Positions 11,656 to 60,201 of a stretch of DNA of 64,000 nucleotides are shown here, piece by piece. The stretch is from Bdellovibrionales bacterium CG10_big_fil_rev_8_21_14_0_10_45_34. Lineage in GTDB: Bacteria > Bdellovibrionota > Bdellovibrionia > Bdellovibrionales > 1-14-0-10-45-34. Every line of letters begins with the position of its first letter. Position 1 is the stretch's first letter. The stretch is from positions 140,537-204,536 of the forward strand of contig PEZS01000006.1 in the NCBI GenBank assembly GCA_002778785.1. The letters run 5' to 3'. The notes beneath the pieces were generated by a model. It worked only from the letters and a program-made list of their open reading frames with translations. It was not told the origin of the DNA and did not search any database. The position numbers and the translations under genes are program-made.

Positions 11656-12054
11656 TTAGCGTGCGGGAATTCGACAACTTTTTTTAGGAAGGTATCGCCG
11701 TATCTTTGCAAATGCGTGATAGCCCAAAGTCATAATCGCTTTTACAGGCTTTACAGAGGCTATGCGGGCAACCGATATATACCCCGGTAGAGTCTCCCAA
11801 ATAGCGATAAACGCATCGACGGCGGTTCTTAAGTGGCCATCTTTGTCGATAACATGGAGTGCTTTTTGAACTTGCGTGGGATCTAAGTTGTAATCTGATG
11901 CTACAAAATCAGGATGCGTGATATCCACAAACTCTAGGTTTTCTGAACCACTCAGTTTTTGGTAGTGCTCCATTTCATAAGAACAAAGATGGCACAAACC
12001 ATCGTAAAAAATTTTAACTTTGTTGTTTAAACGCTTGTCTTCCATATAGTTCAT
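11656..12054 (-). CDS. DCC-family (DUF393) thiol-disulfide oxidoreductase-like protein
   Basis: A protein of about 132 residues with the family hallmark near the N-terminus: VKIFYDGLCHLCSYEMEHY, containing the D-G-x-C-x-x-C motif that resembles a thioredoxin-like active site. Members are small proteins of unknown substrate, some fused to membrane enzymes. The start is set at the ATG at 12054-12052, which begins MNYMEDKR; the next ATG (12045) is also possible. The first codons lie inside a perfect inverted repeat shared with the divergent regulator gene, whose own product also begins MNYME. No Shine-Dalgarno site is seen, so the mRNA may be leaderless. Regulation by the neighbouring GbsR-like protein is likely. 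Confidence 0.8.
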   Translation of the reverse strand: MNYMEDKRLNNKVKIFYDGLCHLCSYEMEHYQKLSGSENLEFVDITHPDFVASDYNLDPTQVQKALHVIDKDGHLRTAVDAFIAIWETLPGYISVARIASVKPVKAIMTLGYHAFAKIRRYLPKKSCRIPAR

Positions 12055-12074
12055 AGTAGTATGAACTATATGGA
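12041..12074. promoter_or_regulatory. Perfect 15-bp inverted repeat covering both divergent start codons
   Basis: TCCATATAGTTCATA (12041-12055) is followed by GTAG and by its exact reverse complement TATGAACTATATGGA (12060-12074). Each arm holds an ATG on its outgoing strand, so both divergent genes begin with the same codons (MNYME). Each arm also contains TATAGT, which can serve as a -10 element for the opposite arm's gene; for the plus-strand gene TTGTTT at 12023-12028 lies 16 bases upstream of it. The arrangement fits a self-regulated operator bound by the GbsR/MarR-type protein encoded at 12061, with leaderless or near-leaderless transcripts. Confidence 0.75.
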
Positions 12075-12546
12075 AAAGCAACAGGTTGTTTCATATCGGG
12101 AACTTGCGCAGAGTGTGGGACATTTTATTAGATACTGGGGTTTTAGGCAGATCCATGGTGAGATTTGGACACTCGTCTACCTTGCTAGGTCCCCCCTTTC
12201 TGGGGCCGAACTCGTTGAACTGCTCGGAGTTTCAAAGGCTTTAATAAGCCCAGCAATCACGCAACTCGAGTCAGAGGGCCTCATTCGGCAAATAGAGAGC
12301 GAAAATGCGAAAACAAAAAGATACGTGGCCGTTGATAACGTTGATGAAGTTATTCGGCAGGTTCTCAAAAGAAGAGAGCTGCCTATGTTGTCAAACGTTG
12401 CAGGTGCACTCGAAAGCATATCTGACGAATTTGCCGTGTCACAGTCTTTTGCCCGCGGTGATCGCCTGAAAGAGCTAAAAAAGATGGTTGAAACTGCGCA
12501 AAGCGCTTTAGCCTTCTTGATTGCTTCAGAAGACTTTTGGAAGTGA
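12061..12546 (+). CDS. GbsR/MarR-type winged-helix transcriptional regulator
   Basis: The 161-residue protein has a winged helix-turn-helix domain (about residues 15-95): FIRYWGFRQIHGEIWTLVYL, then PLSGAELVELLGVSKALISP as the helix-turn-helix and ITQLESEGLIRQIESENAKT as helix plus wing. The GFRQIHGEIW stretch is characteristic of GbsR (COG1510) proteins, usually repressors that respond to small ligands. The C-terminal helices probably dimerise. The start is an ATG at 12061 within the palindrome (the ATG at 12070 is an alternative). It is followed on the same strand by a polyprenyl synthase, a UbiA-family enzyme and an oxidoreductase, which it may control together with the divergent DCC gene. 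Confidence 0.85.
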   Translation: MNYMEKQQVVSYRELAQSVGHFIRYWGFRQIHGEIWTLVYLARSPLSGAELVELLGVSKALISPAITQLESEGLIRQIESENAKTKRYVAVDNVDEVIRQVLKRRELPMLSNVAGALESISDEFAVSQSFARGDRLKELKKMVETAQSALAFLIASEDFWK

Positions 12547-12656: not shown

Positions 12657-13601
12657 GTGTCAAATACTATGACCTTAGATTTTTCTCTTCCAAGTTTATC
12701 TACAAATTTTGAGCTATCAGAATTGATCAATCATAACGCCCTCAAAGGGGGCAAACGCATTCGGCCTCTCTTGTGCCAAATGTTTGGCCAGATTGCTGGT
12801 TGCTCGGAGCCAGCACTTTCTACTTTAAGCCGGGCTGCAGAACTCGTTCACACGGCTAGCCTCATCCATGACGACATCATTGACGAAGCTAAAGTCCGCC
12901 GACTCAGAAAAACGCTACGAGAGCAGACTAGCAATGCCCATGCCGTCTTGGCGGGCGACCACCTTATTGCTGTTGTGCTCAAAGATTTGGCTATCCTCGG
13001 GTGCACTTCGATCATCGAGGATCTAGCATTGGCTCTTGAAAGGTTAACTCATGGAGAGTGGTTGCAGCTGGAATCCCGTGGGCTAATAGATATCACTGAT
13101 GAACACCTGCTTCGCATAGCAAAGCTCAAGACATCGAGTCTTATCGAGTGGGCCGTCAAAGCTCCACTGTTGTACACTCAGCAAAGTTCAGACGTTATCG
13201 AGTCAGCAGTCAAATATGCCCAAGAGATTGGCATCGCATTTCAGTTAGTCGATGACACACTCGATTTTTCTCCAGCAGCTGAAAAAGATTACGCCAAAGA
13301 TATTCAAGAGGGCCTAGTCAATTCAGTGAGCCGCTATGCTTTGAAGCAAAACCCTAAACTTGGTGCAGTTATTCTTAGGACCCTGGGTACATCTGATGTG
13401 TCAGAGCTCAGAGAATTTCAACATCACTGGCGAAACTCTATAGAACAAATTCATCAAAAAGCTGTATGCCACTATGAATCGGCGCTTTATGCACTTGGAG
13501 AAGTTGAGAAGCATTTTTTAACGGAACATCTGCGCAAAAGATTAGAGATATTCGAAGAGATAAGGCGACTCAGTGCACATGTCATACTGAGAGAAAATTA
13601 G
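12657..13601 (+). CDS. Polyprenyl diphosphate synthase (trans-isoprenyl diphosphate synthase family)
   Basis: The 314-residue protein makes linear isoprenyl diphosphates by condensing isopentenyl diphosphate with an allylic primer. Visible family motifs are GGKRIRPLL near residue 31, the first Asp-rich motif in LIHDDIIDEAKVRR, the lysine in KTSSLIEWA and a second Asp-rich motif in FQLVDDTLDF. The second motif is DDTLD followed by F rather than the common DDILD. Chain length cannot be read with certainty. The GTG start at 12657 is supported by AAGGAGAA at 12643-12650; an ATG at 12666 is possible. It lies between the GbsR-like regulator and a UbiA-type prenyltransferase, which suggests that it supplies the prenyl donor for that enzyme. 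Confidence 0.9.
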   Translation: MSNTMTLDFSLPSLSTNFELSELINHNALKGGKRIRPLLCQMFGQIAGCSEPALSTLSRAAELVHTASLIHDDIIDEAKVRRLRKTLREQTSNAHAVLAGDHLIAVVLKDLAILGCTSIIEDLALALERLTHGEWLQLESRGLIDITDEHLLRIAKLKTSSLIEWAVKAPLLYTQQSSDVIESAVKYAQEIGIAFQLVDDTLDFSPAAEKDYAKDIQEGLVNSVSRYALKQNPKLGAVILRTLGTSDVSELREFQHHWRNSIEQIHQKAVCHYESALYALGEVEKHFLTEHLRKRLEIFEEIRRLSAHVILREN

Positions 13602-13627: not shown

Positions 13628-14734
13628 ATGGAGCGATTTATCGAACATTCAGAAAGTTGTCATGAGAAAGAAGCTAGTAGTTATTTTGTGAAAATTACCG
13701 ATCCAGTTGCGAAAAAAGCCCTATGGGAGGGTTTTATAGAGAAAGGATCCAGCAAAGTACGGGTTGTAGCTGCAGATTACTTTACTCATGATAGCACGAT
13801 CCGGTTCGAAAAAACTCGAACAGAAGCTTCGATTAACTTAGCAACATGGATTGAGTCGCTGAGAATATATAGCTTAACCGCAACTGCCTTGCCCGTCTTA
13901 GCAACAATCGCATTTGTATCTAGCTTTGGAGCCACTATCGATTGGTTGACCGCAATTACAGCATTTATCGGAGCTGTAACACTTCAGCTTTCAGTCAACC
14001 TACTCAACGATGTCGAAGATCACCTGCGACTTATAGATTTTCCGGGCGGCCCTGGAGGAGCCGGGGTGATTCAAAAAGGCCTCTTAACTGCAAAGCAAAT
14101 CCACAAATTAGGCATCATCGCATTTGTGGTTGGAGCAGGTCTCGGTTTACCTGCATTATTGAAAAACCCGATAGAAATCTTTATGATTGGGCTCATCGCT
14201 GTTCTCGGCACCTATGGCTACTCTTCGGGCGTCGGTTTTAAGTACAAAGCACTTGGCGACTTGGTGGTATTTTTGTTATGTGGCCCACTGCTCACAGCTG
14301 GCGCTAGCTTTGCTGCAACTGGCGTGTTGAGTGCAGAGGTCCTGTGGTTAGGTGCGTTTTTTGGTTTTGCAGCTGTTGGAATATTGCATGTTAACAACAT
14401 GCAAGACATTGAACTGGATTCATCGCGATCAGCAAAAACACTGGCATCGCTTCTGGGGTTTGGTCTGTCACGATGGTTCTTGGTCTCAATTTACTTAGTG
14501 GCTATTTTATGTCTGTTTATTGCGACATTTGAACATCCACAATTTAGTTGGGCTACAGCAGCTTTGCTCCCAAGCGTTCTTCTTGCGGCTGGTTTGATAA
14601 AAAAAATTTTTAAGGCCTCTGGTTGTCAGTCTCCACACTTACAGGGGGCTCGAGTAAAAGCGGCACAACTTCATTTGGTTGCCGGTTCACTGGTGACAGT
14701 TTACTTTTTCGTTTCAAAGGCTTTAGGAGTTTAA
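13628..14734 (+). CDS. UbiA/MenA-family membrane prenyltransferase with N-terminal extension
   Basis: The 368-residue protein has the two Asp-rich motifs of UbiA enzymes, SVNLLNDVEDH (about residue 123) and NNMQDIELDSSRSAKT (about residue 257), set in eight or so membrane helices starting near residue 80. The spacing and the second motif resemble MenA (1,4-dihydroxy-2-naphthoate prenyltransferase). It transfers a polyprenyl chain to an aromatic acceptor in the membrane. The first ~75 residues are an extension not usual for MenA; the part SSYFVKITDPVAKKALWEGF recalls the start of CrtC/AttH-like lipocalin domains, a resemblance I cannot verify. The gene follows the polyprenyl synthase by 26 bases and precedes the oxidoreductase by 2 bases. 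Confidence 0.85.
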   Translation: MERFIEHSESCHEKEASSYFVKITDPVAKKALWEGFIEKGSSKVRVVAADYFTHDSTIRFEKTRTEASINLATWIESLRIYSLTATALPVLATIAFVSSFGATIDWLTAITAFIGAVTLQLSVNLLNDVEDHLRLIDFPGGPGGAGVIQKGLLTAKQIHKLGIIAFVVGAGLGLPALLKNPIEIFMIGLIAVLGTYGYSSGVGFKYKALGDLVVFLLCGPLLTAGASFAATGVLSAEVLWLGAFFGFAAVGILHVNNMQDIELDSSRSAKTLASLLGFGLSRWFLVSIYLVAILCLFIATFEHPQFSWATAALLPSVLLAAGLIKKIFKASGCQSPHLQGARVKAAQLHLVAGSLVTVYFFVSKALGV

Positions 14735-14736
14735 AT

Positions 14737-15285
14737 ATGAAGAAGGTACTTTCTCTTAACGTTTTTTCTTCGGAGTTTTCAAGAACGTATGCGGCCTATA
14801 ACAAGCACAAAGCGGAGATTATTTTGTGCTTTAAAGAAGAGCTTGGAGAGGTGAGTCTTCACGAAGTTGATCTGCTCGAAAGTACCAAACTCTCAGTAGA
14901 TAAGACTTACCTGCAGAGTCGTTTTCAAGAACCATCAGATGAAGCGCGAATGTTCCTTGAGGCTGACGCCTATTTGTTCGCCTTTCCGATCTGGAACTTC
15001 GGGTTACCATCGGTTCTCAAAGCCTATATCGATCGCGCTATCATTCCGGGTTACACGTTCACTTTTGTCGACGGCAAAATCTTGAGTCGTGTCGGTGGGC
15101 GCAAGGCCACTTTTATCGTTACTGCAGGCGGTCTCTACTCAGAAGCGGACACAAAGCCCTACGAATCGTTAGAAAAGATTCTTCGCTTTTTATCGATAGA
15201 CGTCAGCGTGGCGGCTTTTTATCAAGGGCTGGACGTTGGTTCACCAGATGCAACCTCTGCTTTAGATAGGGAGATAAATCGCTAA
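14737..15285 (+). CDS. FMN-dependent NAD(P)H oxidoreductase, AzoR/flavodoxin-like
   Basis: The 182-residue protein has a flavodoxin-like fold typical of AzoR/NQO-type quinone reductases: an initial strand MKKVLSLNVFSSEFSRTY, the FMN-binding FAFPIWNFGLPSVLKAYIDR (P-x-W-N-F-x-x-P) and FIVTAGGLYS. It probably reduces quinones or azo compounds with NAD(P)H. The start is the ATG at 14737, preceded by AGGAG, two bases after the prenyltransferase stop; an upstream extension is not supported. The tight link to prenyl-chain genes suggests that it reduces a prenylated quinone made by the operon, which is inference. Confidence 0.85.
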   Translation: MKKVLSLNVFSSEFSRTYAAYNKHKAEIILCFKEELGEVSLHEVDLLESTKLSVDKTYLQSRFQEPSDEARMFLEADAYLFAFPIWNFGLPSVLKAYIDRAIIPGYTFTFVDGKILSRVGGRKATFIVTAGGLYSEADTKPYESLEKILRFLSIDVSVAAFYQGLDVGSPDATSALDREINR

Positions 15286-21196: not shown

Positions 21197-23044
21197 ATGA
21201 GGTGGTCTAGTTTCAAGCTGGCTATAAAGAAAAAAGTCGTGGTGGGTATTTCAGTTTTTGCTCTGGCGTCTATGGCGATTTTTGCCTTTCAAAACTTTTA
21301 TACCTATGAAAGCTCTCGCCGGGCTCATTCCAATTTTATCCCGTTTGCATTTCATCAGGGTGCATGGAGCATTCTAAAAATGACTGTTCCAGGGGGCGCA
21401 TACTTTCCACTTTGGGGAGTGGGCGGGGCTCCGGTAATTAAAGTTTTCTTTTCCGATGAGGATGGAAAATTTGACTTTGATGCTCCGGCTGAGATTCTTG
21501 ATGTCACTGGGCCTGATTTTTTAGATAAAACAGAATATTCGTATGGCGTAGCTGCCGGTGCCTTTTCTGATATCTTCGTTTGGTCTAATTTTGAAATGGA
21601 CGTTCAGCTAGTTCAAATTGACCATACGGGTGCGGTAAGAGAATCGGTTCCTGCCGAAAAAAGCCGCTTAATCACTCCTCCAGCGCCCGCCACAGAAACT
21701 CTACAAGTGTGTAATCGCACAGTCACATTCAATGGGGCGGCAATTAATAAAAGTCACGCGATTACGATTGCAAAGGGCTCTGGTACTTTGACTTTTCAAG
21801 TACAGTCAACAAACTGCACATGGTCGGCTTCATTTGAAGATGGCACATGGTTGACGGGATCCAACATGTCGGGCCCAATCGGGAGTACGGCAAATGTCAC
21901 AATCACCTCAACTGCGCTTACGAGTGGCAGTCGTTCTAGTAAGCTTTTCATCAACGACTACACGGTTACGATTACGCAGAACTCACAACTAGTCTCAGCG
22001 CCAGGTTATCAGACTGGCTGTGGATCTTTGTCGAACGGTCAAAGCTCAACTGTTGTTGATGGCACGGTATCTGTGCCTCAAAATTGCCCGATTGGTGGAA
22101 CCTCAACGAAGTTCTACGAGCGCTTGGTCACTTCCACGTGCACGAACGGGGTACTCTCAACTTCAACGTCTCAGGGGAACTACCTGAGCCAGAGCGGTTC
22201 GTGCAATCCTTCAACGATTCAGCTTTTGGTAAATGGTGGCACCAGCAAGACGATTAACCCGGGAGCGGCGGCTAACTACACTTGGACGAGTGCAGGTGTG
22301 ACGAATGTTTCAAGCACCTATTCTACTTCAGGAACCTATTGTGGTCAGCCCGCTTCGGGCGCGTGGTTGGTCAACACAACAAGTGGTTCGCGCTCTGATA
22401 CAGTTCAGGCTTGTCAGGCAGGCAAAACGTTTACCCTGACTATTTCTGGACAAGGCTTTGAAGGAACTACCCGAACATCTTCCGTTACAGTTGTTGTTCC
22501 GGCTGCGAATGTCACCCTCTCACTCAATAAAACAAGTTACAACACGGGCGAAGCGCCAATCTATACAGTTTCGGGCTCACCGAATTCACCCATCTACTGG
22601 ACGAGTACAAAAAATGGCGCCTCCACGGGCGAATCGAACTCCCATTACGGACAACTTACAAATTCTAGTGGCACATGGACTGGATCGGGTGCTGCCTGGA
22701 CGAGCGCCAATGGCGGCAACTGGACCAAGACGGCAACAGTCGCAGGAAAGAGTAACACGAAGTCTTTCACCGTGGTTACTGGTCCTACATTGGCTCTTAA
22801 TGGTACGAACTACCGAGGCATAATTAATGGTCGTTCTCACCTAGAGCTCTACGGGACTTTTGGAACCACCGGAAACACTGTTTCGATGTCTTGTAACGCA
22901 GGGGTATCAGTCACAGTAGACTACCAAAGTACAACCCAAATTAACATATCCTGGAATCCGTTGTCGTCCTTCCAGAATTGTTTTCTTTGGATAACAGGCC
23001 TTGGCCAAAGCATCAGTGGTCAATTTATAGGCTCAGTAAAGTAA
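21197..23044 (+). CDS. Exported beta-rich (Ig/BACON-like) protein
   Basis: The 615-residue protein has an N-terminal hydrophobic segment (residues ~12-31) that ends in IFAFQNFYTY, so it may be anchored or cleaved. The rest is Thr/Ser/Gly-rich with repeated immunoglobulin-like units: an early SGTLTFQVQSTNCTWSASFE/TVTITQNSQ pattern typical of BACON domains and later Ser/Thr-rich beta repeats with paired cysteines. Such proteins sit on the cell surface and bind ligands or other cells. AAGGAG lies 11 bases upstream of the ATG. The gene follows the possible cysteine protease gene by 32 bases, and the two are probably co-transcribed. A strong hairpin follows the stop. Confidence 0.65.
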   Translation: MRWSSFKLAIKKKVVVGISVFALASMAIFAFQNFYTYESSRRAHSNFIPFAFHQGAWSILKMTVPGGAYFPLWGVGGAPVIKVFFSDEDGKFDFDAPAEILDVTGPDFLDKTEYSYGVAAGAFSDIFVWSNFEMDVQLVQIDHTGAVRESVPAEKSRLITPPAPATETLQVCNRTVTFNGAAINKSHAITIAKGSGTLTFQVQSTNCTWSASFEDGTWLTGSNMSGPIGSTANVTITSTALTSGSRSSKLFINDYTVTITQNSQLVSAPGYQTGCGSLSNGQSSTVVDGTVSVPQNCPIGGTSTKFYERLVTSTCTNGVLSTSTSQGNYLSQSGSCNPSTIQLLVNGGTSKTINPGAAANYTWTSAGVTNVSSTYSTSGTYCGQPASGAWLVNTTSGSRSDTVQACQAGKTFTLTISGQGFEGTTRTSSVTVVVPAANVTLSLNKTSYNTGEAPIYTVSGSPNSPIYWTSTKNGASTGESNSHYGQLTNSSGTWTGSGAAWTSANGGNWTKTATVAGKSNTKSFTVVTGPTLALNGTNYRGIINGRSHLELYGTFGTTGNTVSMSCNAGVSVTVDYQSTTQINISWNPLSSFQNCFLWITGLGQSISGQFIGSVK

Positions 23045-23054
23045 TGCGCACCGT

Positions 23055-23096
23055 TTTGGCAATCTGGCTCTTGATTTCAAGAGCCAGATTTCGCCA
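23055..23096. terminator. Long stem-loop between convergent genes
   Basis: AATCTGGCTCTTGA at 23061-23074 is followed after TT by its exact reverse complement (23077-23090). The flanks TTGGC and GCCAA extend the pairing beyond a small bulge. It sits 16 bases after the Ig-like protein's stop and 68 bases before the end of the convergent PhaR-like gene. There is no long T-run on either side, so it may be a bidirectional, structure-based terminator or an mRNA 3'-end stabiliser. Confidence 0.6.
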
Positions 23097-60166: not shown

Positions 60167-60201
60167 AAAAAAGCGAAACTCACTATGGGTTTCGCTTTTT
60201 T
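60167..60201 (+). terminator. Strong intrinsic terminator after the groESL operon
   Basis: AAAAAAGCGAAAC (60167-60179) and its exact reverse complement GTTTCGCTTTTTT (60189-60201) form a 13-bp stem with a 9-base loop. T-rich sequence follows on the plus strand, and the A-run makes it work on the minus strand as well, serving the convergent lipoprotein gene that ends at 60230. Confidence 0.85.

Follow-up and report, generated by a model that had tools for sequence, protein, structure and literature searches.

The palindrome and its flanking genes

The locus examined here raises the question of why two divergent genes should have first codons that mirror each other across a perfect palindrome. 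In the window, that is the whole stretch of 64,000 nucleotides (64 kb) from a Bdellovibrionales bacterium that was analysed, TTCCATATAGTTCATA-GTAG-TATGAACTATATGGAA forms an inverted repeat (12040..12075) with arms at 12040-12055 and 12060-12075, each 16 bp long and 100% matched around the GTAG centre. The initial annotation described perfect arms of 15 bp around a four-base centre; the palindrome is real, and each arm extends one base further. According to repeat, uniqueness and shuffling searches, no other perfect inverted repeat of the window (loop of at most 20) is as long, five locally shuffled windows held no arms of at least 11 bp, and the full palindrome occurs once in the 3.06-Mb genome, even with three mismatches allowed.

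To the right of the palindrome lies a forward-strand ORF of 161 codons (12061..12546) encoding a MarR/GbsR-like regulator, whose fold is clear from Pfam (PF12802, MarR winged helix, E 6e-8, 33.1 bits vs. a curated cut-off of 27). Like the GbsR-like MarR proteins (MJ223, PDB 1ku9, its best solved relative with E 4e-7) it is a winged-helix regulator, although its similarity to MJ223 is low and none of the NCBIfam models searched with it scored above its cut-off. To the left, on the reverse strand, an ORF at 11656..12054 encodes a DCC1-like thiol-disulfide oxidoreductase (PF04134, E 1e-22), hereafter DCC. The regulator is followed on the forward strand by genes for a polyprenyl synthetase (12657-13601), a MenA/UbiA-like prenyltransferase (13628-14734) and a flavodoxin-fold reductase (about 14737-15285).

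Conservation of the putative operator core

The inner part of the palindrome, GTTCATAGTAGTATGAAC (12049..12066), is conserved upstream of regulator orthologues and is the putative regulator-binding site. When orthologues were picked by protein similarity, with no use of the palindrome, the core GTTCAT-N6-ATGAAC (at least 11 of 12 bases) stood close upstream in 27 of the best 30. Of the 141 genomes belonging to the order, 18 matched a pattern taken from the palindrome's inner part and none matched the reversed, uncomplemented control; exact GTTCATNNTANNATGAAC was found in 26/141 genomes of the order and 5/228 others in the phylum, vs. 3/369 for the reversed control. Among the five phylum genomes outside the order with exact GTTCATNNTANNATGAAC, the site of G213 (L132) adjoins the regulator and is a genuine regulator site. 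Other matches outside the order (Pedobacter L055, L131, L133, L159) were rejected as unrelated, several of them lying within coding sequence. Scanning 84,980 species genomes by pattern yielded 16 stretches; nearly all either bore a Bdellovibrionota label or matched genomes that belong to the order. One locus, L060 (CALQIT020000012.1), is labelled as a Streptomyces griseus MAG; its site sequence equals that of Bdellovibrionales G077, and the label looks wrong.

Conservation peaks in the 18-bp core, and the outer arms lapse where a mirrored start is absent. The occurrence of the core beside the same MarR/GbsR-like regulator across the order indicates that the palindrome is functional, as a control site conserved across relatives. 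A third reading, in which the perfect 16-bp arms pair as an RNA hairpin in any transcript spanning the whole site, is very improbable given this peak of conservation in the core and the lapse of the arms, the lack of a T-run after the palindrome, and predicted transcript starts (see below) that would leave both arms in neither mRNA.

The regulator and a divergent DCC gene with mirrored starts (MNNM or MNYM) recur in L033, L037, L039, L040, L041, L043, L044 and L046; in other relatives an OsmC-like protein, an ABC1 kinase or an epimerase-like protein takes the place of DCC as the divergent partner, and in one a lipocalin gene lies downstream of the site. The possibility of a wider regulon within the genome of the window was considered and rejected: the core with at most one mismatch gave seven further sites vs. 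three for the reversed control, which therefore leaves one convincing core site in that genome. A second paralogue of the regulator, 39% identical, is encoded in the same genome (G000:C13:185830-186273), with no exact core match nearby.

Predicted promoter elements

Each arm does contain TATAGT (12045-12050 on the forward strand, and its mirror image on the reverse strand), which the initial annotation took to be a -10 element for the gene on the other side. Under that reading messages would run from ~12057 (forward) and ~12058 (reverse), translation would begin at the inner ATGs and the two proteins would share the codons MNYME. TATAGT fits five of the six bases of the -10 consensus, and its spacing to the inner ATG would leave a leader of a few bases. 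However, no -35 signal stands at the corresponding spacing, and in the Bdellovibrio-type loci L005, L068, L069, L070 and L072 TATNGT has been lost, with the central TANNNT kept wholly or mostly.

It is this central motif that stands out in a sample of 68 gene-directed promoters from 40 distinct sites: TANNNT occurs at the palindrome centre in 63/68, and TTG lies exactly 17 bp upstream in 32/68, vs. nine or fewer at any other upstream position. Such counts overstate independence, since the sites share ancestry, and part of the sample was gathered through the core pattern. When a sliding -10/-35 model was applied to 54 promoters, the combined signal was clearest for a -10 placed on the palindrome centre, where a -35 (TTG or at least a 4/6 match) accompanied 42/54 promoters, vs. 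17/54 for TATAGT. On the grounds of spacing and of its loss in relatives, TATAGT was thus rejected as the -10 in favour of the conserved central TANNNT with its -35 at 17 bp.

In the window, the putative regulator promoter consists of TTGTCT (12035..12040, forward), which lies inside the DCC gene, a 16-bp spacer and TAGTAT (12057..12062); the putative DCC promoter consists of TTGCTT (12076..12081, reverse), inside the regulator gene, a 17-bp spacer and TACTAT (12053..12058). The -10 boxes have the central TA (12057-12058) in common, and each has its own -35, the arrangement of a bidirectional promoter with a shared -10 as far as the sequence goes, that class being defined by mapped divergent starts 7-25 bp apart. 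The -35 of the forward promoter is modest in the window (TTGTCT, spacer 16), and the -35 is weak in L006, L009 and L037; near-consensus elements face both directions in L134 (TTGACA-17-TACTAT vs. TTGAAC-17-TAGTAT) and L136 (TTGACC-17-TACTAT vs. TTGACC-17-TAGTAT).

The annotation had also placed coding and control constraints on the same bases. An overlap does exist, but mainly where the -35 of one promoter falls among the opening codons of the other gene (AAG CAA for the regulator of the window, AGT AAA for relatives beginning MKSK), and also at the outer ATGs. The core as such is probably not part of either coding sequence.

Predicted start codons and leaderless messages

Both ORFs can be read as MNYME, their inner ATGs (12061 forward, 12054 reverse) being separated by the six-base gap noted earlier. 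The annotation took these as the starts and proposed that both be looked for in related genomes. Mirrored starts are indeed conserved in many genera, but several relatives that keep Met4 either no longer have the inner ATG or have an in-frame stop behind it. The outer ATG is in frame in 38 genes. Although the inner ATG is also in frame in 29 of these, it is unusable in 7/38 (replaced by ATT, or followed by an in-frame stop such as TAA) and is GTG in two more, and in L075 both half-sites have changed together to GTTAAT/ATTAAC, so that the inner ATGs are gone and both outer ATGs are kept. The inspected examples without the outer ATG (L036, the DCC site of L004, L008) have a Shine-Dalgarno sequence and an ATG slightly downstream; L035 is a truncated copy with neither the outer ATG nor such a downstream start. 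Since the outer ATG stays where the inner one is unusable, and outer-less genes have a Shine-Dalgarno start downstream, Met4 rather than the first Met of MNYME is probably the true protein start. The predicted start codons would then be 12070..12072 (forward; regulator 12070-12546) and, as its mirror image, 12043..12045 (reverse; DCC 11656-12045), and the N-terminal codons shared by the two proteins would shrink from MNYME to ME. With both its promoter and its start codons thus in difficulty, the TATAGT reading appears unlikely.

The idea of leaderless or near-leaderless messages fares better in the comparison. Each central -10 ends 7 nt before the outer ATG, in both directions, suggesting that the mRNAs would be leaderless and have their 5' ends at that codon; the predicted divergent starts (12045/12070) are 25 bp apart. 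In the window no Shine-Dalgarno sequence precedes either ATG, and TANNNT (TAGTAT/TACTAT) lies ~12 bp upstream of the start, as in TA-led leaderless genes. Genome-wide the leaderless signal is weak: in a 464-kb sample, TANNNT stands 6 nt before the ATG in 8/153 genes without a Shine-Dalgarno sequence (internal control 0.9%).

A real operator could also act as a roadblock or lie downstream of promoters whose transcripts start further upstream and carry ordinary leaders. Few 5' ends are known in this group, and at the paralogue site L015 a TTGACA-17-TATTTT promoter does precede the core, and the start there has a Shine-Dalgarno sequence. Against such upstream starts stand the Shine-Dalgarno sequences missing in the window and the absence, across the promoter sample, of any competing -35 peak within 45 nt upstream; the promoters would, besides, sit deep within the opposite gene. 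This reading we regard as somewhat less probable again than the TATAGT one.

Where DCC has been replaced or its start moved, the mirrored outer ATG sometimes opens an ORF of 5-9 codons whose stop overlaps the next ATG (MPDAI, MERQL, MNKQGSDKC and MELQYE, each ending in a stop). These leftover ORFs, overlapping the start codon of the next gene, hint that translation may truly initiate at the outer ATG, and that a translated leader, or coupling of translation to the next gene, may have arisen after gene replacement. The loci with leftover ORFs are L035/L142, L038/L145, L049/L156 and L066.

Proposed mechanism

Conservation, spacing, symmetry and the start-codon pattern are read from the sequence; regulator binding, repression and the transcript starts we infer. 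MarR/GbsR-type control is recognized by a dimer on a 16-20 bp palindrome at the regulator's own promoter, and a conserved 18-bp palindromic core overlies the promoter here. We consider it likely that the site merges an autoregulatory operator of the MarR/GbsR-like regulator with a promoter that serves two leaderless genes in opposite directions. The comparison thereby favours the operator/promoter fusion proposed in the initial annotation, with the promoter moved from TATAGT to the centre and the starts from the inner to the outer ATGs.

The palindrome would be the operator of the adjacent regulator, placed over the centre of a bidirectional sigma-70-type promoter whose TANNNT -10 boxes overlap at the central TA, each being served by a -35 situated 16-17 bp away in the codons of the opposite gene. 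Both mRNAs would start at or next to the outer ATG, since each -10 ends 7 nt before it, and would have little or no leader. Bound to the core as a dimer, the regulator would block the two -10s together and keep its own gene and DCC repressed until some signal releases it, and a polymerase engaged in one direction would shut out one facing the opposite way.

Comparison with known systems

Bacterial bidirectional promoters with a shared -10 are known (Warman et al., 2021, as reported in PMC10268837), and PacrA/acrR is one with an autorepressor, AcrR (PMC12825309). Such promoters have divergent starts at most 25 bp apart and overlapping -10s, as predicted for the palindrome; their polymerases are mutually exclusive and the product of a flanking regulator gene represses both directions, as we propose. 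The commonest known start separation is 18 bp, whereas 25 bp is predicted here with only the TA in common; a further difference is that the putative operator has its centre precisely at the dyad, with both transcripts predicted to begin at start codons. Leaderless genes led by TANNNT are known too (PMC3160421) and likewise lack a Shine-Dalgarno sequence and place the motif ~12 bp upstream of the start codon, but at the palindrome two such predicted starts are mirrored around one TA.

CrtR of Corynebacterium glutamicum is a divergent, light-linked MarR regulator (PMC5401885, PMC6739363). Its MarR type and divergent promoter region recall the present site, and its footprint covers -10/-35; crtR is leaderless according to one study and starts 41 nt upstream of its ATG according to a second (PMC5401885, PMC6739363). 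CrtR depends on a TTAA motif, and its gene and crtE are divergent; the palindrome, in contrast, has GTAG at its centre and lacks TTAA, and the prenyl synthase gene runs in the same direction as the regulator, so that a CrtR-type, TTAA-centred operator facing crtE is not what is found here.

Searches of the open literature on MarR with DUF393 and photolyase, LitR-type regulators, GbsR with photolyase, and leaderless Bdellovibrio genes did not find the system, nor was an account found there of an operator, both promoters and both leaderless starts in one mirror-symmetric unit. The general idea is known; the mirror-symmetric fusion appears to be new. One dimer-sized site would cover two interlocked -10s, with each -35 written in the other gene's codons, and many genera would serve as natural replicates of very tight divergent control. 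The proposal makes concrete, readily testable predictions (transcript starts, start codons, mutually exclusive transcription), and the relatives would form a natural series for the gain and loss of leaderless expression, from leaderless start to leader with Shine-Dalgarno sequence to short leader ORF.

Putative regulon and signal

Neighbours of the regulator in relatives include class I photolyase, the photolyase-related DPRP, OsmC, DUF2805, ABC1 kinase, FAD amine oxidase-like, lipocalin and epimerase/DUF1731 proteins; photolyase, lipocalin, OsmC and DUF2805 are beside the regulator in relatives and not next to it in the window. Such gene sets belong to photo-oxidative-stress regulons (ChrR/sigma-E, LitR). 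The photolyase, OsmC, lipocalin and DUF2805 neighbours would therefore suggest a regulon of this kind, and we infer a light- or oxidant-linked signal as plausible. Predatory bacteria and their relatives would then possess an uncharacterised regulator that governs a photolyase/OsmC/lipocalin/DUF2805 set.

Possible origin of the symmetry

At the position immediately flanking the core, all four bases occur among the loci, but the base matches its mirror in 20/21 loci with two outer ATGs vs. 9/19 others (Fisher p = 0.001, a test that ignores the relatedness of the loci). Regulator specificity was rejected as the cause of this symmetric variable base, the recognition-helix motif SKAL(I/V)SPA being nearly constant whatever the base. 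In G103 (L042) two copies of the palindrome, at 1501 and 2708 (1.2 kb apart), stand at the DCC gene and the regulator respectively, each perfectly symmetric and each with a different base beside the core.

Template-switch correction of quasipalindromes is a documented mutation mechanism (PMC7202029, PMC3820800), and correction of one arm by the other would explain the symmetry; selection for two similar starts is a possible explanation as well. A wider proposal, which we advance tentatively and regard as rather doubtful, is that a mirror unit of ~50 bp (operator, both promoters, both leaderless starts) extends across the order, with arm correction matching the codons and a leftover start persisting, once a gene has been replaced, as a leader ORF that overlaps the ATG of the next gene (L035, L038, L049). 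If it were true, a mutational process would write matching protein N-termini for both genes.

Other inverted repeats in the window

The second-longest perfect inverted repeat of the window (23061-23090) has 14-bp arms, AATCTGGCTCTTGA/TCAAGAGCCAGATT, and lies just past an ORF ending at 23044, with no T-run after it. The perfect repeat AAAAAAGCGAAAC...GTTTCGCTTTTTT at 60167-60201 resembles a terminator and, being flanked on either side by A and T runs, is probably a two-way one.
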